Below, one piece after another: positions 1-22,794 of a DNA stretch of 64,000 nucleotides (position 1 is the first letter of the stretch; each line of letters starts with the position of its first letter). A program made the position numbers and the translations under genes. The notes under the pieces were generated by a model. It did not search any database, was not told the origin of the DNA, and worked only from the letters and a program-made list of their open reading frames with translations. This DNA is from a gamma proteobacterium HTCC2207 (GTDB taxonomy: Bacteria > Pseudomonadota > Gammaproteobacteria > Pseudomonadales > Porticoccaceae), in contig CAJJDA010000009.1 of NCBI GenBank assembly GCA_905182855.1, positions 124,001 to 188,000 on the forward strand, read 5' to 3'.

Positions 1-17
1 ACCTCTATTTTTTGCAT
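1..17 (-). CDS. Start of a downstream gene, cut by window edge
   Basis: On the minus strand an ATG at 17 follows a good ribosome-binding site (GGGAG, about 8 bases upstream). It lies 13 bases beyond the stop of the DUF1638 gene, so it looks like the next gene of the same operon. Only five codons (M-Q-K-I-E) are inside the window, so no family can be assigned. In related clusters a corrinoid activation protein or a methylcorrinoid:tetrahydrofolate methyltransferase often sits nearby, but nothing here shows that this is one. Confidence 0.4.
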
Positions 18-30
18 TTTCGTACTCCCA

Positions 31-657
31 CTATGCGTTAAACTTTAAAACTTGTTCTTGCAGGCCTGTCTGAAGGTCACCGTAGCCGCAGGGGACTGTC
101 TCGAACCCCAATGCTAAAAACTCGGCCGCCTTTTGTGCCTGCTGCACCAGCCAGCTGTCCTGCCGCTGCGACAAATAAACAACCTTTGTATAATTGGCAA
201 ATAACTGCGCACGCAACTCGGGATGTTTATCGAGCCGCAGCCCACGGATGATTAAGCGGTCAAAATGTTCGACCAAAAAATCTGTCAGATAAAACGTACC
301 TAAATTCTGCTCAGCCAATTCAGAGAACCGCTGTTCGCCGGCATAAAACGAATAGCAATGCGCGCCAGGTAAGCGCTCGATGCCCTGCATAGACTCTTCA
401 GCAAGAAGAGCATCAATCTGACCACCAGTGCCGCAATCGGCATAGGCAACGAATATATGCTGATACTTTTGCCGGTTTTGCTCGATTTTCAACCGCAACT
501 TCTCAGGAATCAGCTTGGGTCTGTTGTGTAATTCAGCGTCCAGACATTGCAAATCAAACTGCTGCCAACCATTAGCTTTTTGTAACCATACAATCTCTTT
601 GGCCAAAGCGCCGCAGGCGATAACCAATAGTTTTTCCTGAGCCTGAGTTTGGCGCAC
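31..657 (-). CDS. DUF1638 protein of a corrinoid methyltransferase operon
   Basis: This 208-residue protein matches the DUF1638 family over its whole length. It has the N-terminal IACGALAKEI stretch, LHNRP, the YADCGTGG core, LPGAHCYSFYAG, then YLTDFLVEHFDRL and LDKHPELR. The conserved Cys and His residues suggest metal or cofactor handling, but the biochemical role is unknown to me. The start is GTG and shares its first base with the TAG stop of the corrinoid gene (TAGTG), so translation is probably coupled. Family members recur beside MttB-type methyltransferases and their corrinoid proteins, as here, which points to an accessory role in that system. Family assignment is firm; function is open. 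Confidence 0.85.
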   Translation of the reverse strand: MRQTQAQEKLLVIACGALAKEIVWLQKANGWQQFDLQCLDAELHNRPKLIPEKLRLKIEQNRQKYQHIFVAYADCGTGGQIDALLAEESMQGIERLPGAHCYSFYAGEQRFSELAEQNLGTFYLTDFLVEHFDRLIIRGLRLDKHPELRAQLFANYTKVVYLSQRQDSWLVQQAQKAAEFLALGFETVPCGYGDLQTGLQEQVLKFNA

Positions 658-1356
658 TAGGCTGGCTCTAATACTCGACGTTCAGCAACCAAACGAATAG
701 CGGTCGTGGCCGCATCTGCCGCATCACGGCAGTAGGCATCTGCACCAACCGCTAAGCCAAATTCTTCATTGAGAGGAGCCCCGCCAACCATGACAATATA
801 GTTGTCGCGCAAACCCTGATCTTTCAATGCATCCACAACGACTTTCATATAGGGCATAGTGGTGGTTAACAGAGCCGACATTCCCAGAATGTCCGGTTTA
901 TGACGCTCAAGGGCAGCGAAGTAATCTTCGACTGAATTATTAATACCGATATCATGCACCTCAAACCCGGCACCTTCCATCATCATGGATACCAAAGTTT
1001 TTACCAATATCGTGAATATCACCTTTGACGGTGCCAATCACCATAGTGCCGACTGGCCTAGCGCCAGTTTCTGCCAGCAGTGGCTTGAGAATCGCCATGC
1101 CACCCTTCATTGAATTGGCCGACAGCAGGACTTCCGGGACAAACAAAATACCATCACGGAAATCGATGCCGACAATGGTCATGCCGTCGACTAACGCCTT
1201 ACCCAGAACCTGCTCAGGGCTCCAGCCTCGGTTCAACAGAATTTGTGTGCCCTCCTCTATCTCTTCTTTTAGCCCGTCATACAAATCGTCATGCATCTGT
1301 AATACCAGATCCTCATCGGACAGGTCCGCCAAGATAATATCGTCTTCTTCAGACAT
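657..1356 (-). CDS. Corrinoid-binding methyltransferase protein (MttC/MtbC-like), frame broken
   Basis: This is the vitamin B12-carrying partner of the adjacent MttB-like protein: it would accept a methyl group on cob(I)alamin and hand it on. The N-terminal half is the helical B12-binding cap (residues about 10-95). The C-terminal half is a Rossmann-like cobalamin domain with the His-ligand motif GDIHDIGKN, followed by a GxxxDxG-like segment (FEVHDIG) and a SALLTTTM loop. The frame breaks just after GKN near 994-996, where one extra base in an A run shifts it. Removing it gives a continuous product of about 232 residues, normal for the family. A start at 1356 is supported by AGGGGC upstream. 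It lies 29 bases after mttB and overlaps DUF1638 by one base. I regard the break as a probable sequence error. Confidence 0.85.
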
Positions 1357-1385
1357 ATAGTGCCCCTGTTAATATAGCGGTAAAG

Positions 1386-2927
1386 TTAATAATCGCGATC
1401 GGCAAACGACGCTTTACGCCGCGCCATAAAATCTTGTAATGCTTCATCGATCCCAGGGTCTATAGCTGGCGCCTGATAATCATTGAGCATTTTTTTCCAA
1501 AGGGTATTGGCGCGCTGAGCCGTATCCAAAGCACCATCCGCGGTCCACTGTTCAAAACTATTGTTGTCGGCCACCGTGGAGCGGTAAAAAGCCGTTTCAA
1601 AGTTGGCCAACGTATGTGCGGAACCCAGGTAGTGTTTGCCTGGGCCTACTTCTCGCACCGCCTCCATCGCCTGACCGTTTTCAGACATGTCCATGCCACC
1701 GAGCAGAACCCCAATCATGCTGGCCTGATCGCAATCCATAATAAATTTTTCGTAACCCATGGCCAGGCCTCCCTCGAGCCAACCGGCTGTGTGCAGCATA
1801 AAGTTGACGCCTGCCAGTGCCGAAGTTTGCAAGGTATTGGCCGCCTCATAGGCTGCTTGCGCGTCGGGCAGTTTGGAGCCACAAAGACCACCACCACTGC
1901 GAAAGGGAACACCCAGCCGACGTGCCAGTGCGGCAGCGGCATAGACCACCATGCTAGGCTCGGGCGTACCAAAGGTCGGCGCCCCTGTAGCCATTGAGAC
2001 GGCTGCAGCAAAAGTGCCGAAAATTACCGGTGCCCCTGGACGACAAAGCTGAGTGAATGCGATACCCGCTAATGCTTCGGCAAGAATTTGCGTTACCGTA
2101 CCGGCAGTTGTCACTGGTGACATAGCACCGGCAAGAATAAACGGCGAAACAACCGTCGCCTGATTATTGCGGGCATACACTTTTAGGGAACCGAGCATGG
2201 TGGCGTCATAAACCATCGGCGAGTTGACATTGATCAAACTGGTTAACACACAGTTTTGGTCGACAAACTCATCGCCAAATACCAGCTTCGCCATGTCGAC
2301 CGTGTCCTGGGCACGCTCATGATGGGTAACAGAGCCCATAAGTGGCTTATCACTGTATTTGAAATGGGTGTAAATCATGTCGAAGTGACGTTTGTTCACC
2401 GGCAGATCAACTGGCTCACAAATCGTGCCACCAGAATGGTGTAGCCCAGGCGCCATATAGGCAAGCTTTACAAAATTTTCAAAATCTTGGATCGTCGCAT
2501 AACGACGTCCCTCATCGATGTCGTGAACGAAAGGCGAACCATAGGCCGGCACTAATACCGTGCGCTTACCCCCAATAATGACGCTGCGATTAGGGTTGCG
2601 AGCGTGCTGAGTGAATTCTTTTGGCGCGGTCGCCTGAATCAATGAGCGGCATAGTCCTTTCGGAAAATGTACACGGGTACCGCGCACATCGGCACCTGTG
2701 GCTTGCCACAGCGCCAGAGCCTCGGGATCATCCAAAAAGTCGATACCGATCTCTTCCAGTAAAATATCGGCATTGTCTTCGATCAGCTGCAGATTTTCCT
2801 CGCTGAGATATTCAAAATAAGGAATTTTGCGCTCGATAAATGCGGCCTGTTCGACCACTGTATTTTCGCGCGCTTCTCTTCGCCCATCGCGACCACCACC
2901 TTTTCTTCGACCAGTTCTTTCAGTCAT
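1386..2927 (-). CDS. MttB-family (non-pyrrolysine) quaternary amine:corrinoid methyltransferase
   Basis: This 513-residue member of the trimethylamine methyltransferase family (MttB, TIM barrel) is expected to demethylate a quaternary or tertiary amine and pass the methyl group to the neighbouring corrinoid protein. Family features include the N-terminal ENLQLIEDNADILLEEIGI helix, the VPAYGSPF segment, ICEPVDLP, and a Gly-rich GGGLCGSKLPDAQAAYE stretch around residues 343-359. No in-frame amber codon occurs, so it belongs to the non-pyrrolysine branch, whose characterised members act on glycine betaine, proline betaine or carnitine. A basic, Gly-rich N-terminus (residues 5-20) precedes the fold. 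ATG at 2927 follows GGGGGA. The dimethylglycine dehydrogenase upstream favours glycine betaine as substrate, but this is inference. Confidence 0.88.
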   Translation of the reverse strand: MTERTGRRKGGGRDGRREARENTVVEQAAFIERKIPYFEYLSEENLQLIEDNADILLEEIGIDFLDDPEALALWQATGADVRGTRVHFPKGLCRSLIQATAPKEFTQHARNPNRSVIIGGKRTVLVPAYGSPFVHDIDEGRRYATIQDFENFVKLAYMAPGLHHSGGTICEPVDLPVNKRHFDMIYTHFKYSDKPLMGSVTHHERAQDTVDMAKLVFGDEFVDQNCVLTSLINVNSPMVYDATMLGSLKVYARNNQATVVSPFILAGAMSPVTTAGTVTQILAEALAGIAFTQLCRPGAPVIFGTFAAAVSMATGAPTFGTPEPSMVVYAAAALARRLGVPFRSGGGLCGSKLPDAQAAYEAANTLQTSALAGVNFMLHTAGWLEGGLAMGYEKFIMDCDQASMIGVLLGGMDMSENGQAMEAVREVGPGKHYLGSAHTLANFETAFYRSTVADNNSFEQWTADGALDTAQRANTLWKKMLNDYQAPAIDPGIDEALQDFMARRKASFADRDY

Positions 2928-3129
2928 TAAATATCCCCCACTTGAGAGCCTAGAACTCTCTTATCAATAGACCTTTATTCAGCGCAGTTTGTGCCTGTTT
3001 TTAACTTCTCGCATCCAGTTTTGCGACGCGGCAATATCAGTCCGCGACGCGCCTGAAATGAAGCCATAATATTTCCTTTGCTACCCCTTGGGCGGCGTGA
3101 TGAAATCTAAGCGTTTCGGAGCCCCTAAT
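2928..3129 (-). other. Leader between dimethylglycine dehydrogenase and mttB
   Basis: This 202-base gap separates two same-strand genes. It contains one short reading frame (2975-3067) behind a good ribosome-binding site, and a weak inverted repeat (GAGAG/CTCTC) just upstream of the mttB ribosome-binding site. I see no clear promoter and no cobalamin riboswitch signature. It could hold an internal promoter or processing site that gives mttB separate expression. Confidence 0.4.
2975..3067 (-). CDS. Possible small protein, 30 residues
   Basis: On the minus strand an ATG at 3067 lies six bases after AAAGGA and opens a 30-codon frame ending in TAA. The product would be basic, starting M-A-S-F-Q-A-R-R-G, with two cysteines. 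It lies in the gap between the dehydrogenase and mttB genes. Apart from the ribosome-binding site nothing supports it, and I recognise no family. It could be a leader peptide or chance. Confidence 0.2.
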   Translation of the reverse strand: MASFQARRGLILPRRKTGCEKLKTGTNCAE

Positions 3130-5643
3130 TTAGCTGCGCAGGGCTGTGTTATCGGGATCAAATGCCGACTCTTCAATCACTGTGGCGGCATAGCGCTGAC
3201 CAAGAATTTCAATCTCCAATTGAGTACCAATGGCCGCATATTCTGCCTTGATTAGGCCCAGCGCTAGTGATTTCTGGGTTCGGAAACCGTAGCCCCCAGA
3301 TGTTGCGCGCCCAACTAGCAGACCGTCGCAATAAAGACCTTCGGAGCCGCGGGCGTCGGCATCAGTAACCCCGTGCACCTCAAGTGTCGCAAAACTGTTA
3401 ACAAAACCCCGAGTCTGCCACGCCAGAAGTGCCTGCTTGCCGACGAAGTCGCATTCTTTATCCAGCTTTACAAAACGATCAAGTCCAGACTCCAGAGCGG
3501 AATACTCAATCGACATTTCACGGGGAATCAATCGGTACGATTTTTCTAACCGCATACTGTCCATCGCGCGTATACCGAAAGGTTTAATATCAAATTCAGC
3601 ACCGACCTTCATCAGTTCATCAAAGATATAGTTCTGCATCTCGATGGGATGATGTAATTCCCAGCCCAGCTCACCGACAAAGTTAACCCTGAGAGCCTCG
3701 GCTTGGGCATAACCCACATTGATTGATTTTCCCGTCAGCCATTTAAAATTTTCATTGCTAAGGTCGGCATCGGTAAGCTTTTGTAATACCTCTCTGGACC
3801 TAGGTCCGGCCAGTACCAGTACACCCATTTGGGTGGTGATTTTCTGCAATGCGACGGAGCCATCGTTAGGCACCAGCTTAGTCAGACAATCCCAATCATG
3901 ACGCTCATTAGCACCCGCAAAAACGAGGTAATAACTATTCTTAGCCCGCTTATAAATCGTGAACTCTGCTCGCACACCGCCATTTTTCGACAACATATGG
4001 CACAGGCCTATACGACCGATAGCTTTGGGAACGTTATTAGCTACTACAGAATTTAGCCAGGCTTCTGAGCCGCGGCCCGTAACTGTCGCCTTAGAGAAAG
4101 CAGACATGTCCAGCAGGCCAACCTTGTTGGTGACATGGAGGCATTCCTGACCAACAAAATCAAAGTAGTTGGAGCGGCGAAAGCTGTTCTTCTCAACAAT
4201 GCGACCATCTGTAGTGGCCCCCGAATGGTTCTTATTCCAAAGCGTGTCGTCTTTATTGAGGTCTGCCTCAGACAGTGAATAGCCTGGAGGCGCAAACCAA
4301 TTAGGCCGCTCCCATCCATACACTGATCCGAATACCGCGCCCAAATCTTTCATGCGGTCATAACAGGGCGCTGTCTTTAATGGCCTAGCAGCGCTACGCT
4401 CTTCATCAGGGTAGTGATTTTTAAATACATGGTCGTAGGCTTCTTCATTTTTCGCACGAAGATAACCTCGGGTTGCGTAGGGACCAAAACGACGCGGGTC
4501 AACGCCCATCATGTCAACGGTAGGCTCACCATCTACAATCCATTCAGCCAACTGCCAACCAGCACCGCCAGCCGCGGTAATACCAAAACTGTGCCCCTCG
4601 TTAAGCCAAAAGTTTTTAAGGCCCCAGGCCGGCCCAACGATAGGGTTACCGTCTGGCGTATAGGCAATAGCGCCGTTATAAACAGTCTTAACACCCACCT
4701 CAGCAAATGCGGGAACCCGTTTCATGCAGGCTTCGATATGCGGCATTAGGCGATCGAGGTCACCGTTGAATAGTTCGTATTCCGACTGATCGCTAGGACC
4801 CTCTACATAACAGCAGGGCGCTCCCTCTTCGTAGGGACCGAGAATAAAGCCCCCCGCCTCTTCTCGCAGATAGTAACCAGCATCGGGTTCTCTAAGGACA
4901 GCTTGCTCAGGCTTGCCAGCGGCTTTACGAGCCAAAATATCCGGGTGCGGGTCGGTCACAATATATTGGTGCTCGACAGGAATAACTGGAATATCTAGGC
5001 CGACCATCTGCCCGGTTTTACGTGCAAAATTGCCTGTGCAGCACACCACATGCTCACAGTGAATGTCCCCTTTGTCCGTTTTTACAATCCAACTATCATC
5101 CGGCTGAGCTTCTAAATCCAGCACCACAGTATTACGGTAAATTTCTGCACCACGGCTACGGGCGCCTTTCGCCAGCGCCTGCGTTAAATCGGCCGACTGA
5201 ATATAACCATCATCCGGATGCTGAATCGCGCCGATAACCCCATCAACATTGCACATAGGCCAGGTCTCTTTAACCTGTTCAGGAGTCAGAAAATTAACTT
5301 CCACACCCACGGTCTGTGCTATCCCAGCATAGTATTTATATTCATCCATACGATCTTCTGTAGACGCCAAACGGATATTCGACACCACACTAAAGCCAAC
5401 GTTTTGACCCGTTTCTTTTTCCAATTCATGATAAAAATCAACTGAGTACTGATGTAGCTTGCCGACCGAATAGCTCATATTAAATAGCGGCAATAAACCT
5501 GCTGCATGCCAAGTAGAGCCGGAGGTCAGTTCTTTGCGCTCAACCAACACAACGTCTGTCCATCCTTTTTTGGCCAAATGATACAACGTGCTGACACCGA
5601 CCACACCACCACCGACTACCACTACTTTTGCATGTTTTTTCAT
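3130..5643 (-). CDS. Dimethylglycine/sarcosine dehydrogenase-like flavoprotein (DAO + GcvT domains)
   Basis: This 837-residue protein resembles mitochondrial dimethylglycine dehydrogenase from end to end. Residues 5-370 form the FAD-dependent DAO domain, with the dinucleotide motif VVVGGGVVGVSTLYHL and SGSTWHAAGL, whose His46 matches the covalent FAD attachment residue of the family. An FAO_M linker follows (about 375-430), then a GcvT aminomethyltransferase fold (about 460-735) and a GcvT C-terminal barrel ending near residue 830. The expected reaction is oxidative N-demethylation of dimethylglycine or sarcosine, with the C1 unit captured as 5,10-methylene-tetrahydrofolate. It is the first gene of the minus-strand methyltransferase operon and is divergent from fhs, another tetrahydrofolate enzyme. 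Which of the two substrates it prefers cannot be decided from sequence alone. Confidence 0.87.
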   Translation of the reverse strand: MKKHAKVVVVGGGVVGVSTLYHLAKKGWTDVVLVERKELTSGSTWHAAGLLPLFNMSYSVGKLHQYSVDFYHELEKETGQNVGFSVVSNIRLASTEDRMDEYKYYAGIAQTVGVEVNFLTPEQVKETWPMCNVDGVIGAIQHPDDGYIQSADLTQALAKGARSRGAEIYRNTVVLDLEAQPDDSWIVKTDKGDIHCEHVVCCTGNFARKTGQMVGLDIPVIPVEHQYIVTDPHPDILARKAAGKPEQAVLREPDAGYYLREEAGGFILGPYEEGAPCCYVEGPSDQSEYELFNGDLDRLMPHIEACMKRVPAFAEVGVKTVYNGAIAYTPDGNPIVGPAWGLKNFWLNEGHSFGITAAGGAGWQLAEWIVDGEPTVDMMGVDPRRFGPYATRGYLRAKNEEAYDHVFKNHYPDEERSAARPLKTAPCYDRMKDLGAVFGSVYGWERPNWFAPPGYSLSEADLNKDDTLWNKNHSGATTDGRIVEKNSFRRSNYFDFVGQECLHVTNKVGLLDMSAFSKATVTGRGSEAWLNSVVANNVPKAIGRIGLCHMLSKNGGVRAEFTIYKRAKNSYYLVFAGANERHDWDCLTKLVPNDGSVALQKITTQMGVLVLAGPRSREVLQKLTDADLSNENFKWLTGKSINVGYAQAEALRVNFVGELGWELHHPIEMQNYIFDELMKVGAEFDIKPFGIRAMDSMRLEKSYRLIPREMSIEYSALESGLDRFVKLDKECDFVGKQALLAWQTRGFVNSFATLEVHGVTDADARGSEGLYCDGLLVGRATSGGYGFRTQKSLALGLIKAEYAAIGTQLEIEILGQRYAATVIEESAFDPDNTALRS

Positions 5644-5915
5644 ACTCGTCTCTCAGGCGCCCACTTTGCATTTATTTTTGCAGTTTAACTGGCAAGACTG
5701 GTCCGATAGGGCGCAATTACGACAAATATATATCATCCACCGCCACTGTAAAATCAGTCTCTATACGCCGCCATAGTCGTTTTTAGAACACCATTTGCCG
5801 GTCTCAGAAAGCCATCGACAATGTGCTTTACGGAAGATGTCAGCTCATGATTACCGCTCGATCCAAGGGTGCCATTGTGTGCCAACTATTAGCCTAATTA
5901 TTGGAGCAAGACTCA
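5644..5915. promoter_or_regulatory. Divergent control region between dehydrogenase operon and fhs
   Basis: These 272 bases separate the two divergent transcription units of the C1 module and must contain both promoters unless fhs is read from elsewhere. I found no gene, no convincing -35/-10 pair and no clear riboswitch fold. The only well-defined element is GGAG at 5903-5906, which places the fhs start at the ATG at 5916 rather than the TTG at 5901. A shared regulator site here is plausible but not visible. Confidence 0.45.
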
Positions 5916-7583
5916 ATGAGTGACATCGAGATCGCCCGCAACGCCAGCACCCAACCCATTGCCGATGTGGCTGCCAAACTAGGCATCCCTGACACCGCAT
6001 TAATTCCCTACGGCAGAACCAAGGCGAAACTCAGCCCAGACTATCTAGCCAATCTAAAGGACCGTCCAGACGGCAAACTTATTCTTGTCACTGCAATTAC
6101 TCCAACGCCAGCAGGTGAAGGTAAAACTACAACCTCTGTAGGTCTTACTGATGGGTTAAATCGCATTGGTAAAAAAGCATTGGTCTGTCTTCGTGAGCCC
6201 AGTCTGGGCCCTTGCTTTGGCATGAAAGGCGGCGCTGCGGGCGGTGGCTATGCTCAGGTCGTACCCATGGAAGATATCAACCTGCACTTTACCGGTGATT
6301 TTCATGCCATAGGTGCCGCCCACAATCTTCTGTCGGCACTAATAGACAATCATATCCACTGGGGCAATAGTCTTGAAATCGATGCTAGACGAATCGTGTG
6401 GAAGCGAGTCGCCGACATGAATGATCGCGCTTTGCGCAGTATTAATTGTGGCCTCGGCGGCCCCGGCAATGGCTTCCCAAGGCAGGATGGCTATGACATT
6501 ACCGTCGCGTCTGAGGTGATGGCTATCTTCTGCCTCGCGACAGATTTAGATGATCTCAAAGCTCGCCTGAACAAAATTGTTATAGGCTACACTCGCGATC
6601 ACAAACCCGTTCACGCCAGCGACATAAACGCGACCGGCGCTATGACTGTACTGCTAAAAGACGCTGTGGCGCCTAATTTGGTGCAGACGTTGGAGAACAA
6701 TCCCGCCATCATCCACGGCGGTCCCTTTGCCAATATTGCCCACGGCTGTAACTCTGTAATCGCCACTAAAGCGGGTTTAAAGATGGCCGATTATGTGGTC
6801 ACAGAGGCCGGCTTTGGCGCGGATCTGGGTGCTGAGAAATTCTTTGATATTAAGTGCCGCTCTGCGGGACTGAACCCAGATGTGGCTGTCATAGTTGCCA
6901 CCACACGTGCGTTAAAGATGCACGGCGGCGTCAGTAAAGAGGACTTGGATAAAGAAGACCTAGCGGCCCTTTCTGAGGGCTGCTCAAATCTCGTCCGCCA
7001 TATTGAGAATGTAAAATCTTTCGGTGTTCCGGTGGTGGTTGGTATCAATCGATTCACCTCAGATACTGACGCCGAAATTGAATTGATTAAAGCGCTCTCT
7101 ATGGCCAATGGCGTCAAAGCCGTTGACTGCACACACTGGGCCGATGGTAGCGCAGGCACCGAGGAGTTGGCTCAGGAGGTGGTTGCTCTGGCTGACTCTG
7201 GGGCAGCCAGTTTTGCTCCACTGTACGTAGATGATATGCCAATCTGGGACAAAATAAAGACTGTTGCCACTCGACTCTATCGCGCAGATGATATCATTGC
7301 TGACCAAAAAATTCGTAATCAGATTCGCGACTTACAAGAGAACGGCTACGGCCATTTCCCAGTCTGTATCGCCAAGACCCAATACAGTTTCTCCACCGAC
7401 CCCAACCTTAAGGGTGCGCCCAACAATCATGTGGTTGCGATTAGAGAGATTAGTTTGTCTGCAGGCGCAGGATTCATTGTTGTGGTGTGTGGAGATATAA
7501 TGACGATGCCTGGATTGCCTCGGGTGCCCGCGGCAAACAGTATTGATATAGATGCTAAGGGTGAGGTAGTCGGGCTTTTTTAA
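5916..7583 (+). CDS. fhs: Formate-tetrahydrofolate ligase
   Basis: Fhs joins formate to tetrahydrofolate with ATP, giving 10-formyl-tetrahydrofolate, and can run in reverse to make ATP and formate from oxidised C1 units. The 555-residue product has the family length and the P-loop-like [12 protein letters not shown] at residues 62-73. [19 protein letters not shown] and the HFTGDFHAI segment follow, and the C-terminus has [12 protein letters not shown] frame is open from a TTG at 5901, but the GGAG at 5903-5906 supports the ATG at 5916. It is divergent from the dimethylglycine dehydrogenase-like gene, so its likely role is handling C1 units released by methylated-amine breakdown. The family assignment is secure. 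Confidence 0.96.
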
Positions 7584-16698: not shown

Positions 16699-17229
16699 CT
16701 AGGGTAACAAACTCTTAGTATCAATCGGCGAGGCTTCATTTCTTCCTTCGCCCTTATCTTTAGTGGCCGTTTTCATTCCCGAAACACGATAGAAATTGTA
16801 GTCCGGATATTTACCAACGCCATTGATTAACAGATGTTCTTTCTCGTACACCATATTCTGTCGATCGTACTCACACATTTCAAAATCTGGTGTTAACTGA
16901 ATAGCATAGGTGGGGCAGGCCTCTTCGCACATACCGCACATGATGCAACGGGAAAAATTAATACGGAAAAATTCGGGATACCAGGTACCATCTTCGCGCG
17001 TGTCTTTTTGCAGCGCAATACAGTCAACTGGACAGACCGCAGCACAGAGGTTGCAGGCGACGCAGCGCTCCTCACCGTCAGGGTCTCTGGTCAATACAAT
17101 ACGCCCACGATAGCGTGGCGAGAGATAAGGCATCTGCTCGGGATACTGCACCGTTTCAGCCTTAGTAAAGGTGTGTTTAAGCACTTCCCAGATAGTACGC
17201 AATTCACTCAACATCAGCTTCCTCACCAT
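16699..17229 (-). CDS. nuoI: NADH-quinone oxidoreductase subunit I
   Basis: NuoI is the 8Fe ferredoxin-like subunit carrying clusters N6a and N6b, which pass electrons to NuoB. Two motifs [16 protein letters not shown] and [16 protein letters not shown] hold the eight ligating cysteines, and [17 protein letters not shown] precedes the first. The open frame reaches 17373, but that extension is the out-of-frame end of nuoH. The ATG at 17229 has GGAGGG about seven bases upstream and shares a base with the nuoH stop (TAATG), giving 176 residues. Confidence 0.95.
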
Positions 17230-18217
17230 TAAGCACCCTCCATCCATAACAGCACAGCACCGGTTACCAACAAGTTGACCAGCGTAATCGGCAACATGAC
17301 TTTCCAGCCCAGCGACATCAATTGGTCGTAGCGAGGTCGTGGAATGGCGGCGCGCAAAAGGACAAAAAAACAAATAACAATAAAGACTTTAAAACCAAAC
17401 CAGAAAAGTGGTGGCAGCCAATGGCCCGATTAGGGCGGGACCATGCCAGCCACCAAAGAAAAGTGTCACAATCATGCAGGAGATGAGCATCAGACCAAGA
17501 TATTCGCCCAGCATAAACATAGCGAATTTCATACCGCCATACTCGGTATGAAACCCTGCGGTTAACTCGTGTTCCGCCTCGGGCAAATCAAAGGGTAGTC
17601 GATGGCTTTCAGCAATACCTGCGATCACAAATACAATAAGTCCGAGCGCTTGGGAAAAGCAAAACCAAACATCACTCTGTGCCGCAACAATATCAACCAG
17701 ACTAAAACTGCCAGACATCATTACAACGCCCATCAGTGATAGGCCCATAAAGACTTCGTAGCTGACCATCTGAGCCGCGGATCTCAATCCACCAAGTAAG
17801 GCATATTTATTATTCGATGCGAGCCCTCCCAATAGCACACTGTAGACCGCTAATGAGGTCATTCCCAGAAAGAATAGCAGACCGATATTAACATCAATGA
17901 TCATCACATCAGGCGCAAAAGGGACCACGGCAAAGCCCATCATCATTGCGACCACAATCGCCGTCGGCGCAAAAATAAACACCATGCCGATCGGCAAAGG
18001 GTGGTACCCAATCATCTTTTAACAGCAACTTGATCATGTCCGCGGACGACCTGGCCGATGCCCCAAGGGGCCGAGTGCGGTTTGGACCGTAGCGATCTTG
18101 CCAAACACCCAGCAAACGCCGTTCAAACCAAGTTAATATGGCGGCTCCGGCTACGCCACCAACTAGAATAATGAGCGCCAGTAACACTGGCATTAATTCT
18201 GCCGTTAACTCAGGCAT
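17229..18217 (-). CDS. nuoH: NADH-quinone oxidoreductase subunit H, frame broken
   Basis: NuoH is the eight-helix membrane subunit forming part of the quinone cavity of complex I. Recognisable pieces lie in successive frames: [81 protein letters not shown] with [10 protein letters not shown], then [18 protein letters not shown] to the stop at 17229. One inserted base near 17987 and one near 17420 explain the two visible shifts. Three more inserted bases around 18045, 18065 and 18073 cancel out in frame but garble about a dozen residues between GPNR and ADMIK. Corrected, the protein is about 328 residues, as expected. It overlaps nuoG by eight bases and nuoI by one. I read the breaks as sequence errors. 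Confidence 0.9.
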
Positions 18218-20970
18218 TTGCTCCTCCCCTGTCGGTTAGCAACGGACTAGGACGAGTCTTGTCGGTGGCGATCAACAGAGGTTCACGGCGACGCCATGAG
18301 GGATCTTTCTCTAGGGTTACCTGCATACCGGCCTCTAAGCCCAGCGTCGTTTGATAACCGACGCTATAGCCAACACAGCGGTTCGCGACGCGTTGGATAA
18401 TGATCACCTCCAGCGACAGGCTAATTCCGGCATGCGTCAGGATTAAACCATCACCCGCGACAACGTCGAGGGACTTGGCATCGACAGGACCAAGCGCAAT
18501 CGAGGCAGCACCCGCCAGTTCGGCAATCTCATCAGTCTGGACAGACAATTCCTCAGAGCCATGCACCCTATATCTGGGTACCAACAACCAGTTTTCAGGC
18601 GCTAACTCAAGATGACTTTGACTTGCCTTTCGCGCAGCCCCTCGCTTCGTTGACTGGATTAGCCTCACACCTGCTGGGCCACCTTTTAAAGGACCATCCA
18701 CCTCCGCCTGAAACTTCTGTAAGGATTGATTGGAATTCCATCCTGGCGACCAAAAATACGGCGTCAAGCTGGCCGGCTGATCCCTATTCAAGCCCTCCAT
18801 GCTATAGGATAACGGGGCTTTCCTGCATCAATCGGCTGCTGAGGCTCGTGCACCGATAGACCCGCATTCATCGCTGTACGGCCGCTGTATCTGTGCGTCT
18901 GACGAGGAATCTTTGAGCCTCTATCACGAAACTGACTGCCCGGTGCTACGTCAGTTAACTGTTCAAAAATCGGGCGGCTACGAGCAATGGCTTCAACCAC
19001 CTGATCAAAATGTTTCCAGATCCCATTGCTGGCCACAGGCCGGCGCCAAGTCTAGCAACCATTGCCAGCTAGACTGCCGTTCCGCCAGCGGCTTATAAAC
19101 GGAGAAATAGCGCTGGGCACGCCCTTCGCTACTGACAAAGGTGCCCTGAGACTCTGCAAAGGAGGCCACCGGTAACACCAGGTCCGACTGACTCAACGTA
19201 GTGTTTTCCAGCATATCCATGCTGATTACCTTACTGTCTCCGTTTAACAGACTCTCCAGTGTCCTTCAGACGCACGACGCCCTAGGTCGTTTTCTAAAAT
19301 AATCAAGGCGCTGATGTCGCCAGCACTTTTTCGCCAGACTCGCTTAGGCTTAGCCCCTCCACCGTCGACCAGCAGCGCAAGGCCAAGGGAGTTGGCTTCC
19401 GGCAGAGCTAAGGACAGCATAGTCTGTTTGGGAAGCGCTTCCGCAACGGCCACTGAGCTATTGATTACACCCTGATGGAGCATACTCGAGCCACTAATAA
19501 TTAGAGGATTTTTCGCATCCTTTAGAATTTTGGCAACCTGAATTGCCTCTGTATTGTCTGTGTCTTTCCCTAGCAGCGCCTGGGCAACAGCAACACCAAA
19601 ATCGGCAATATCATCCGGCGCCAGAGAAATCCTCTGACTGGCGACATCATCAAGCCGGGTATCCATAGCTGATACAATAATTAGGGGTGAACGTTGATCC
19701 TGAGCCAGATTGCGCACTGCCGCATCCTGCCAAGCATGCAGTCCCATCTGTTCGGCTAATTCAAAAGCCTTGTTACGGACCGCTTGGCGCAGCGCTAGCG
19801 CAACCCGAGGCGCGGTGCTGGTAATGTCCTCGCCAAGAATTAAAATCGCATCGGCACCTTCCATCTGTTTAATTGAAGGATTCGAGGCCTTAGTGGTTTG
19901 TAGTATCTTGGCGATGCTGGCAATGATACTGCCTTCAACATCAGAGAAGCCCGCGCAAAAATTATCTGCACCCACTAATTCCCGCAATAAATAGTTCGCC
20001 TCCAAAGACGCCCTAGGAGACCCTATTCCGGCAACCTTTTTTCCTTTAATCCAATTTGCGGCTGTGTCTATGGCCTGCCGCTGATGCACTGCGAAAAAGC
20101 TGTCATCGGGTTTTCGAATGCCCGCATAATCTAAGCGAGCATCGCTGTTAACATAACCACTGCCAAAGCGACCCCGGTCGCAGAGAAAATATCCATTGAC
20201 CTCATTGTTATATCGATTGTGTATGCGTTTCAGTTTACCGTAACGTTCCCCTGGAGCAATATTGCAGCCTACAGCGCAACCACTGCAGATAGAAGGGGCT
20301 GATTGTAAATCCCATTTACGGCTGTAATGCTTCAAAAACGGTTTGTCGGTAAACACGCCAGTAGGACAGACCTCGACCAAGGTTCCCGGAAAATTCACTT
20401 TCTAGTACGCCGTCCTGCTGGCGGCCAAAATACAGTCGGTCGCGCGATGCTTGGGCGCCGAGGTCGGTGCCGCCGGCGTAGTCGCGATAGATAGCGCTCG
20501 CAGCGATAGCAGGTGATGCAGCGATTCATTTCATGGTGAATAAGTGGCCCAAGGTACTGGTTTCGAAAAGTATTTTTGGTACCTGTATAGCGGCGGTCAC
20601 GGTGCCCTACCATCACCGTCATATCCTGTAAGTGACATTCGCCGCCCTCCGCACAGACGGGACAGTCATGGGGATGATTCAACATAAGCGACTCGACGAC
20701 AGCGCTACGGAATTCTGCTGCCTTTTCAGCTGACACAGAAAAGCGCGCACCTTCGGTCACTGCAGTCATGCAGCCCATCACTATACGCCCTTCGGTATCC
20801 TCTTCATTTTGGTACTGTAGCAGAGCACATTGGCGGCAGGAACCAACCGAGCCCATAGCTGGGTGCCAGCAGAAATAAGGTAAATTTAAGCCCGCATTAA
20901 GACAGACTTCGAGAATATTATCACCGTCTTTAACCTGCAGTTCCTGACCATCTATAAATATGGTTGGCAT
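18210..20970 (-). CDS. nuoG: NADH-quinone oxidoreductase subunit G, frame broken in several places
   Basis: NuoG is the large iron-sulfur subunit of the peripheral arm. The N-terminus (from 20970) has the [2Fe-2S] ferredoxin domain ([14 protein letters not shown]), [16 protein letters not shown] and NRCITCYRC. The molybdopterin-oxidoreductase-like domain follows with [10 protein letters not shown] and [17 protein letters not shown]. The C-terminus contains [40 protein letters not shown] and a terminal domain ending near 18210. The frame is interrupted near 20490, 20381, 19261, 19013, 18822 and 18815; all but the 19261 case are explained by one extra base. Together the span encodes about 919 residues, like E. 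coli NuoG. Nothing is missing, so I treat it as one gene with sequence errors. Confidence 0.9.
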
Positions 20971-20983
20971 AATTTAAACTCTT

Positions 20984-22266
20984 TTAATGATAGGGGCACC
21001 GGCCACCAGTAATATGTTGTTTAAAATCATAATAAAAATATTTAAGCGCACTCTGCAACGGCTCCATCGCGCCTGGAGCTAGGGCACAGTGAGTATTGCC
21101 CATAGTGCCTATGTACTTAATCTGGTAAGCCAATGTCTCTAAGTCTTCTGGCTGACCGCGCCCCTGTTCTATATCAAGTAGTACCTGATGAGTCCATGGC
21201 AGTCCCTCTCGACAGGGCGTGCAAAAGCCACAGGACTCATGAGCGAAAAAACGAATAAGGTTTAGCACCATTCCTACAGGACAGGTCTGGTCATCTAAGA
21301 TAATCATAGTACCTGTACCCATGCGACTACCCGCCTTACCGATGACGTTATAGTCCATCGCTAAATCCAAGTGGTCGGGGGTTAGAGAAGTCGGTCGAGC
21401 CACCGCCTGGCAAAAAACCTTTGAGCTGCAATCCAGCTTGCATACCACCGGCATGATCCTCGAGTATTTCGCGAATCGGCGTGCCCATAGGCAGCTCCCA
21501 GCAGCCAGGGTTTTTCACCCGGCCGCTGACACCAAACATCTTGGTTCCACTATCTTCACCCAACCCTAAACTCTTAAACCAATCGGCGCCATGATCAATA
21601 ATATGCGAGATGTTGCACAGAGTTTCGACATTGTTGACGATCGTGGGACGGCCCCATAGACCACTTACTTGAGGGAACGGTGGCTTAGCTCTAGGATTTG
21701 CGCGCTTGCCCTCAAGAGCATTAATTAGCGCGGTCTCTTCACCACAGATATAACGACCGGCACTGGGGTGCACATACATGTTAAGGCTAAAACCACTGCC
21801 AAGAATATTATCGCCAAGGTAGCCTTTGGCGTAGCACTCAGCCAGCGCATCGCGCAGCCGCTGGATGGCTACTACATATTCACCTCGGATAAAAATATAG
21901 GAGATATCAGCATCAATCGTATAGGCACTGAGAATCATCCCTTCAATCAACTGATGCGGGTCGCACTCCATTAACAGACGATCTTTAAAGGCCCCTGGCT
22001 CCATCTCATCAGCGTTACAAACCAGATACTTGTGCCCCGGAGTGCAGTTGTCACCCTTGGGAACAAAGCTCCATTTCATGCCGGTTGGGAACCCGGCTCC
22101 ACCACGACCGCGAAGATTCGAGGCGCTAATGACATCCTGACAGTCTTTTGGCGATAGCTCAGCGAGCGCTTTACGCTAGTGCTCTGTAACCACCATTGGC
22201 TTCATAGGCTCTTAAATCAGTCGGCTGTAGGTCGGCACCGATGTTACGAGTAAGGACTTTTTCCAT
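20984..22266 (-). CDS. nuoF: NADH-quinone oxidoreductase subunit F, frame broken
   Basis: NuoF binds NADH and FMN and carries cluster N3, where electrons enter complex I. The first part (22266 to about 22175) reads [14 protein letters not shown] and ends at a false stop caused by one extra G near 22175. In the next frame come NLRGRGGAGFPTGMKWSF, NADEMEPGAFKDR, AGRYICGEETALINALEG and LPGGGSTDF. A second extra base near 21385 shifts to the last frame with ESCGFCTPCREG, the N3 cysteine motif. Corrected length is about 427 residues. ATG 22266 has AGGA upstream and overlaps the nuoE stop (TAATG). nuoG follows after 13 bases. Confidence 0.9.
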
Positions 22267-22794
22267 TATTCCTGACTCCCTTTTTTCGCTTGATTTGTGG
22301 CAAAAACCTGCTCGATTATATTGTTATCTCAAGATGGGTCACTAAGTCATCGCCAACCATCATCACCGGCGCCCTGATCACAGGCTCCCAAGCAGGGGAC
22401 CGGGATCAAGGTGTAGCGGTTATCGAGCCGTGGTTTCGCCATAGTCGACACCCAGCACATCGGTAATCTTTTGTTTGACCCCATCGCAACCACAGATCCA
22501 GCAACTGACGCTGTCACAAAATAAAATGACTTTCTCTCCGACAGGCCGACGATAAATTAAATTATAAAAAGTGGCCACGCCCTCGAGTTCTTCAGCAGAC
22601 ATTTCCAAATGCTTTGCAATACCTTGCAAGCATTCATCAGAGACCCAGCCTCGTTTCGCCTGAACAATCTTTAATGCATCAATAGCCGCCCCAGACTTGT
22701 AGGGAACGTGACTGAGTTCATGATCTATCTCGTCGATCTCCTGCTGACTGAGCACCGATGTCAGATCGGATTGAATTATCTCTGGTTCATTCAT
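22266..22794 (-). CDS. nuoE: NADH-quinone oxidoreductase subunit E, frame broken
   Basis: NuoE is the thioredoxin-fold [2Fe-2S] subunit (cluster N1a) beside NuoF. The N-terminal 115 residues are intact: helical [18 protein letters not shown], then [15 protein letters not shown] and a [10 protein letters not shown] ligand segment. After GVDYGETTA the frame shifts. Removing single extra bases near 22425 and 22373 restores [18 protein letters not shown] with the last two Cys ligands, and adding one near 22324 carries it to the TAA at 22266. The repaired product is about 176 residues. It overlaps nuoCD by four bases (ATGA) and nuoF by one. Confidence 0.88.

Follow-up and report, generated by a model that had tools for sequence, protein, structure and literature searches.

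Transfer of methyl groups through a corrinoid protein to tetrahydrofolate (THF) in an aerobe is known from the chloromethane (cmu) pathway, which has another substrate and another methyltransferase. A closer parallel was described in 2025 by Mausz et al., who combined mutants in mtgC and mtgD with proteomics and reported that the aerobe Ruegeria pomeroyi demethylates glycine betaine via MtgBCD, that RamA, DUF1638, and MetF2 are upregulated on betaine, and that MtgC and MtgD are needed for methionine too (PMC12478193). According to the same article, mtgC occurs in SAR116, SAR324, and SUP05. Frequently, the genes are accompanied by those of the later demethylation steps. The main text of the article mentions neither SAR92, HTCC2207, nor Porticoccaceae. 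Our searches found no open-licence literature joining SAR92 with trimethylamine methyltransferase, and a SAR92 paper places glycine betaine in its supplement (PMC6383258). We describe here an operon of this published pathway type in SAR92, and a new part, the PF13769 protein.

The DNA analysed, referred to below as the window, is a stretch of 64,000 nucleotides (G000:C9:124001-188000) from a SAR92-clade MAG of 1.64 Mb that is 76.4% complete; the host is taken to be aerobic. The minus strand was found to carry genes for a dimethylglycine dehydrogenase (DMGDH) homologue, an MttB-family protein, a corrinoid protein, and a DUF1638 protein, with fhs divergent, all with strong Pfam matches and as a sequence-only reading of the window had listed them. 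The fhs product, a formate-tetrahydrofolate ligase (5901-7583, plus strand), scored 897 bits against PF01268 and 916 bits against NCBIfam NF010030 (cut-off, 652). The DMGDH homologue (3130-5643, minus strand; 837 aa) has DAO, FAO_M, GCV_T, and GCV_T_C domains, that is, an FAD oxidoreductase joined to folate-binding GcvT-type domains, and is nearest to DMGDH, its best solved relative being the mammalian enzyme 4pab (629 bits). The MttB-family, MtgB-like methyltransferase (1386-2927, minus strand; 513 aa) matches PF06253 with 756 bits and has no in-frame stop. The MtgC-like corrinoid gene (657-1356, minus strand) belongs to the family named by the sequence-only reading, which nevertheless overlooked that it is split over two frames rather than forming one ORF: the PF02607 cap domain (961-1356) and the PF02310 B12-binding domain (657-1037) lie in separate frames. 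A DIHDIG motif near the end of the cap domain is presumably the cobalt-ligand motif.

The DUF1638 protein (31-657, minus strand; 208 aa; PF07796, 98 bits) is thought to help in corrinoid reactivation, by analogy with a Phaeobacter homologue for which fitness data are published; Price et al. (2018) linked B12 reactivation to a DUF1638 protein and a RamA-like one (PMC5764234). In an alignment of 39 sequences (A1), Cys14, Cys74, His99, and Cys100 were invariant and Cys37 nearly so; these residues could form a metal or iron-sulfur site. The first 17 nucleotides of the window are the start of a minus-strand gene for a 102-aa protein of the PF13769 "Virulence_fact" family, which extends outside it (C9:123709-124017; L003 709-1017).

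The module delimited by the sequence-only reading consists of real genes, but the unit continues on the same strand beyond the left edge of the window. There, PF13769 is followed by MetV (PF12225), MetF (PF02219), a pterin-binding methyltransferase, and a RACo/RamA activase (PF14574). The methyltransferase and the activase had been listed as missing; both in fact adjoin the window in the same operon region. The former, which we call MtgD, matches PF00809 and scored 362 bits (cut-off, 259) against the NCBIfam methyl-THF:corrinoid/iron-sulfur protein methyltransferase domain. A search of the whole genome located the activase family only in this operon, as two adjoining pieces in two frames, and PF00809 in the operon and one other place, taken for FolP. 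Past the activase, one AraC-type regulator is encoded in the operon's direction and a further protein of this type on the opposite strand, followed by SoxB, SoxA, and SoxG; SoxA and SoxB exceed their NCBIfam cut-offs, while SoxG does not (87 versus 144 bits), yet it exceeds its Pfam cut-off. The genome also encodes two strong BCCT carriers. Complex I turned out to be a mere neighbour of the operon.

We then compared the locus with the described systems. Homologues of MtgB, MtgC (in two frames as assembled), MtgD, RamA, DUF1638, and MetF occur together, as in the R. pomeroyi system (PMC12478193), and R. pomeroyi DSS-3 resembles our host further in being an aerobe and in having the dimethylglycine and sarcosine steps follow. 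The two differ in that SAR92 has everything but MtgE in one operon region, has MetV-MetF instead of MetF2, keeps MetH in its isolates, and has PF13769 in the operon. Since a system of this kind operates in aerobic Ruegeria, the remark in the sequence-only reading that such a module is unusual in an aerobe has been superseded. Sinorhizobium meliloti and Paracoccus aminovorans have a RamA-MtgD-MetF-MetV-DUF1638-corrinoid run beside MttB, in the latter on a plasmid with a carnitine dehydrogenase about 12 kb away; the Sinorhizobium record adds a "virulence factor," bmt, and a glycine betaine/proline ABC gene. Unlike in SAR92, MttB is divergent in both and no DMGDH is present in the stretch. Desulfitobacterium hafniense, with its MtgB/MtgC/MtgA system, is an anaerobe, and its MtgB shares fold and sequence kinship with the SAR92 protein (430 bits to 2qne), while the SAR92 corrinoid protein falls below the NCBIfam MtgC cut-offs.

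To determine how constant the operon is, we scored the best 80 of 355 MttB loci, each only where its flank sufficed. The nearest MttB relatives, taken as one genome per species, are SAR92/Porticoccaceae members with 71 to 92% identity, and the isolates HTCC2207, MOLA455, and H921 are among these best 80. A second, more distant MttB paralogue (356 to 365 bits) is found on other contigs of G011, G014, G015, G020, and G028. Dozens of relatives share the gene order, more than chance would give. Each corrinoid half was present in 62/70 loci, DUF1638 in 57/68, PF13769 in 58/65, mtgD in 58/62, and ramA in 50/58; MetV (38/65), MetF (36/63), and a divergent MetF2 (17/63) were less frequent, as were fhs (30/56), the first, same-strand regulator (27/56; the only regulator scanned), and soxB (27/51). 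DMGDH (at least 60% identity) was detected in 41 of the 64 loci with upstream flank, lying upstream on the same strand in 31 of these, and is therefore not a constant part of mtg loci. Within the genus, 36 further genomes have MttB; we fetched the operon region from 30 of them, and DMGDH directly preceded MttB in every region reaching far enough.

The folate module differed within the genus. A FastTree tree of MttB plus DMGDH, midpoint-rooted and built without a support test, contained a group of 22 genomes, including our own, with MetV-MetF in 20/20 readable operons, and a sister SAR92 clade of 9 genomes, in which a 312-aa MetF-like protein (MetF2) stood instead in 6/6 readable operons. MetF2 matched no Pfam family and gave only a weak score (27 bits) against a MetF model; with the plasmid-borne MetF of the cmu pathway of Methylorubrum extorquens CM4 it shares 35% identity. 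This split between the tree groups means that the folate module is exchanged within one genus. In the sister clade, the divergent MetF2 takes the place of MetV-MetF in an operon that has PF13769 as well (L137 7358-8612; L133 12226-13550). A replacement of MetV by PF13769 in that clade was considered and ruled out, PF13769 being present in both kinds of operon and MetV-MetF alone being swapped for MetF2.

The PF13769 protein showed a close tie to MttB. Of 50 genomes of the genus, 33 encode it, namely, 32 of the 37 with MttB and 1 of the 13 without. In the five MttB genomes lacking it, MttB lies near a contig end or is fragmentary, as judged from coordinates and from the G004 and G011 regions; the single exception of the opposite kind (G023) is a 3.5-kb contig with the order corrinoid-DUF1638-PF13769-MetV-MetF-mtgD, cut at both ends. 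We extended the survey to 199 Pseudomonadota genomes, our own and 198 others selected for a completeness of at least 90%. PF13769 was present in 22, MttB in 23, and DUF1638 in 34; all 22 PF13769 genomes carried both MttB and DUF1638, and the sole MttB genome without PF13769 (G137) has an MttB fragment of 73 positions. None of the 176 genomes without MttB had PF13769, and DUF1638 alone occurred in 12 of them (e.g., G058, G066, G094, and G152). Fisher's test for the co-occurrence gave 2e-28, a value that ignores kinship, the 22 genomes falling into six families, with 18 of them in two. In one family (f47), PF13769 lies at least 20 kb from any listed MttB or DUF1638 gene, or on another contig, in 11/11 genomes, which means that physical linkage does not by itself account for the association.

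The position of the gene was equally regular. Among 97 loci (the best 80 of 355 MttB loci and 17 around PF13769 in other genomes), PF13769 preceded mtgD on the same strand in 78 and stood on the opposite strand in none. Between the two genes lay MetV-MetF (42 loci), MetF2 (27), or neither or a remnant (9). In the other 19 loci, PF13769 or mtgD was absent, or mtgD was cut short, in the fetched piece; two loci (L058 and L077) have mtgD without PF13769. From 21 other genomes with PF13769, 17 regions were fetched, and mtgD followed PF13769 in all 17. Two motifs of the protein, WRDIP and RF, are invariant, and its structure, although modelled with confidence, matched no known fold. Bacillus subtilis was the only one of 14 control genomes to encode it, so the family is wider than the MttB/corrinoid system. 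No mention of PF13769 by name was found in open-licence papers, nor any open-licence literature linking a "virulence factor" with methylenetetrahydrofolate reductase, corrinoid, or DUF1638, and the main text of Mausz et al. mentions neither the family nor that name (PMC12478193). PF13769 looks like an undescribed core component of the system, for which the name "virulence factor" is misleading. We give little better than an even chance to a bolder version, a guess from gene order, in which the protein is an obligatory partner of the aerobic MttB/corrinoid system, targets either MtgD or the corrinoid protein, and may help cob(I)alamin chemistry in air. These two partners are favoured over MetF because the place before mtgD is constant whichever MetF module follows, or none. 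The absence of PF13769 from the operon stretch of the P. aminovorans plasmid slightly weakens the partner reading.

We consider the operon to serve glycine betaine catabolism in this SAR92-clade bacterium, with methyl groups passing via the corrinoid protein to folate, at a probability of roughly 0.8, because the families of the parts, their solved relatives, the conserved operon, the betaine, choline, or carnitine genes near relatives, the BCCT carriers, and the Ruegeria parallel all point that way; the path of the sequence-only reading, from corrinoid-dependent demethylation through DMGDH and sarcosine oxidation to THF, is supported to this extent. Against it stand the corrinoid and MttB proteins falling below the cut-offs of named models, the broken genes of the window's own genome, and the inconstancy of DMGDH. 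MttB is not of the pyrrolysine type: it matches PF06253 without an in-frame amber codon and aligns a leucine to the modified residue X334 of 7xcl (Pyl334, the named pyrrolysine position; PMC9842639), and among solved relatives it scored 758 bits to 4yyc, 430 to MtgB 2qne, 429 to 9yce, and only 119 to the pyrrolysine MttB 7xcl. The sole named model that it matched, TIGR02369 for the pyrrolysine trimethylamine enzyme, did so below the cut-off (260 versus 525 bits). Likewise, the intact corrinoid protein of a relative (L137) scored 170 versus 310 bits and 198 versus 370 bits against NF047995 and NF047996. Passages of PMC9842639 and PMC12155760 gave no betaine-pocket residues that would settle the substrate. 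The main substrate of MttB might be a different quaternary or sulfonium compound, with DMGDH and Sox serving betaine made otherwise; one MttB fold handles many substrates in Eubacterium (PMC12478193; PMC12155760), and some relatives have the mtg run with no DMGDH nearby. We regard this as unlikely, given the constant place of DMGDH before MttB in our genus, the single MttB of our genome, and an Azoarcus plasmid relative (69%) that lies near betA, betB, folD, and a choline ABC protein. The presence of DMGDH and SoxB/A/G is consistent with conversion of betaine to glycine. Decay of the operon into a non-functional state in this lineage, suggested by the frame changes in the corrinoid gene and ramA, is the least probable of the alternatives. 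Of the 64 genes of C9:104001-188000 that could be compared with the syntenic G027 stretch, at least 7, ramA included, match in more than one frame; the screen missed mtgC, which makes this count a lower bound. Three of these genes lie in the complex I operon (window about 17200-22300; by place and length, probably nuoF, nuoG, and nuoH), which points to numerous small indel errors in the assembly. The two halves of the corrinoid protein are still conserved in our genome; the protein is one ORF in 62/62 relatives with both halves, and RamA is an ORF of at least 640 aa in 48/50. With so many genes broken here and the relatives intact, errors of assembly are the most likely cause of the breaks.

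A further alternative is that the system works mainly as a split methionine synthase, in which MtgC, MtgD, and MtgE make methionine and betaine use is secondary. The genome encodes a protein of the MtgE type, with 47% identity to Sinorhizobium bmt across 311 aa, and neither MetH nor MetE (PF01717) was found in it. Still, this MtgE lies outside the operon, which contains MttB, DMGDH, and regulators instead; the genome is only 76% complete; and MetH was present in 26 of the 37 MttB genomes of the genus, including each of the SAR92 isolates (taken as G001, G002, and G027). We consider a mainly synthetic role very improbable. In total, 37 of the 50 genus genomes, our own included, had MttB and 38 had MetH, with 11 having MttB only, 12 MetH only, and 1 neither; one genome of the MttB-only group (G041) has a MetH-like fragment and was counted as MetH positive in the clade counts below. 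Weak matches to MetE, of 31 bits at most, occurred in 4/50 genomes. A narrower proposal, that one sub-clade lost MetH and relies on MtgC-MtgD-MtgE, is borne out only in part. MetH went undetected in 6/9 genomes of the MetF2 clade that have MttB (G004, G009, G013, G035, G037, and G042) against 4/22 of the MetV-MetF clade, several of these genomes being less than 90% complete, but the MtgE-type protein of the MetF2 clade, identified by score and length, occurs in G011 and G014, both of which have MetH, and the other stand-alone PF02574 type is only 23% identical to bmt.

To the observed gene content, order, conservation, and co-occurrence, we attach the following reactions, each read from protein families and the Ruegeria work, for glycine betaine catabolism. 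MttB/MtgB would transfer a betaine methyl group to the cob(I)alamin cofactor of the corrinoid protein, and MtgD would pass it on to THF; PF13769, as a guess from its place in the operon, would most likely act alongside MtgD or the corrinoid protein. MetF with MetV would convert methyl-THF to methylene-THF, in the direction proposed for Ruegeria, and RACo/RamA, helped by DUF1638, would re-reduce cob(II)alamin, as the families and published genetics suggest. DMGDH would turn dimethylglycine into sarcosine, and the heterotetrameric-type sarcosine oxidase sarcosine into glycine, each feeding methylene-THF, and Fhs could end the chain at formate with a gain of ATP.

The analysis puts the B12-dependent betaine route in the surface-ocean clade SAR92, where its genes form one operon region. 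Because isolates of this clade keep MetH, growth on betaine could be examined in them separately from the making of methionine. Through its close tie to MttB, the misnamed small protein PF13769 becomes a pathway component that can be tested, and a marker for a pathway that is reportedly widely expressed in the ocean. It is the clade, the exchange of the folate module, and above all the PF13769 tie that make the finding useful and testable.
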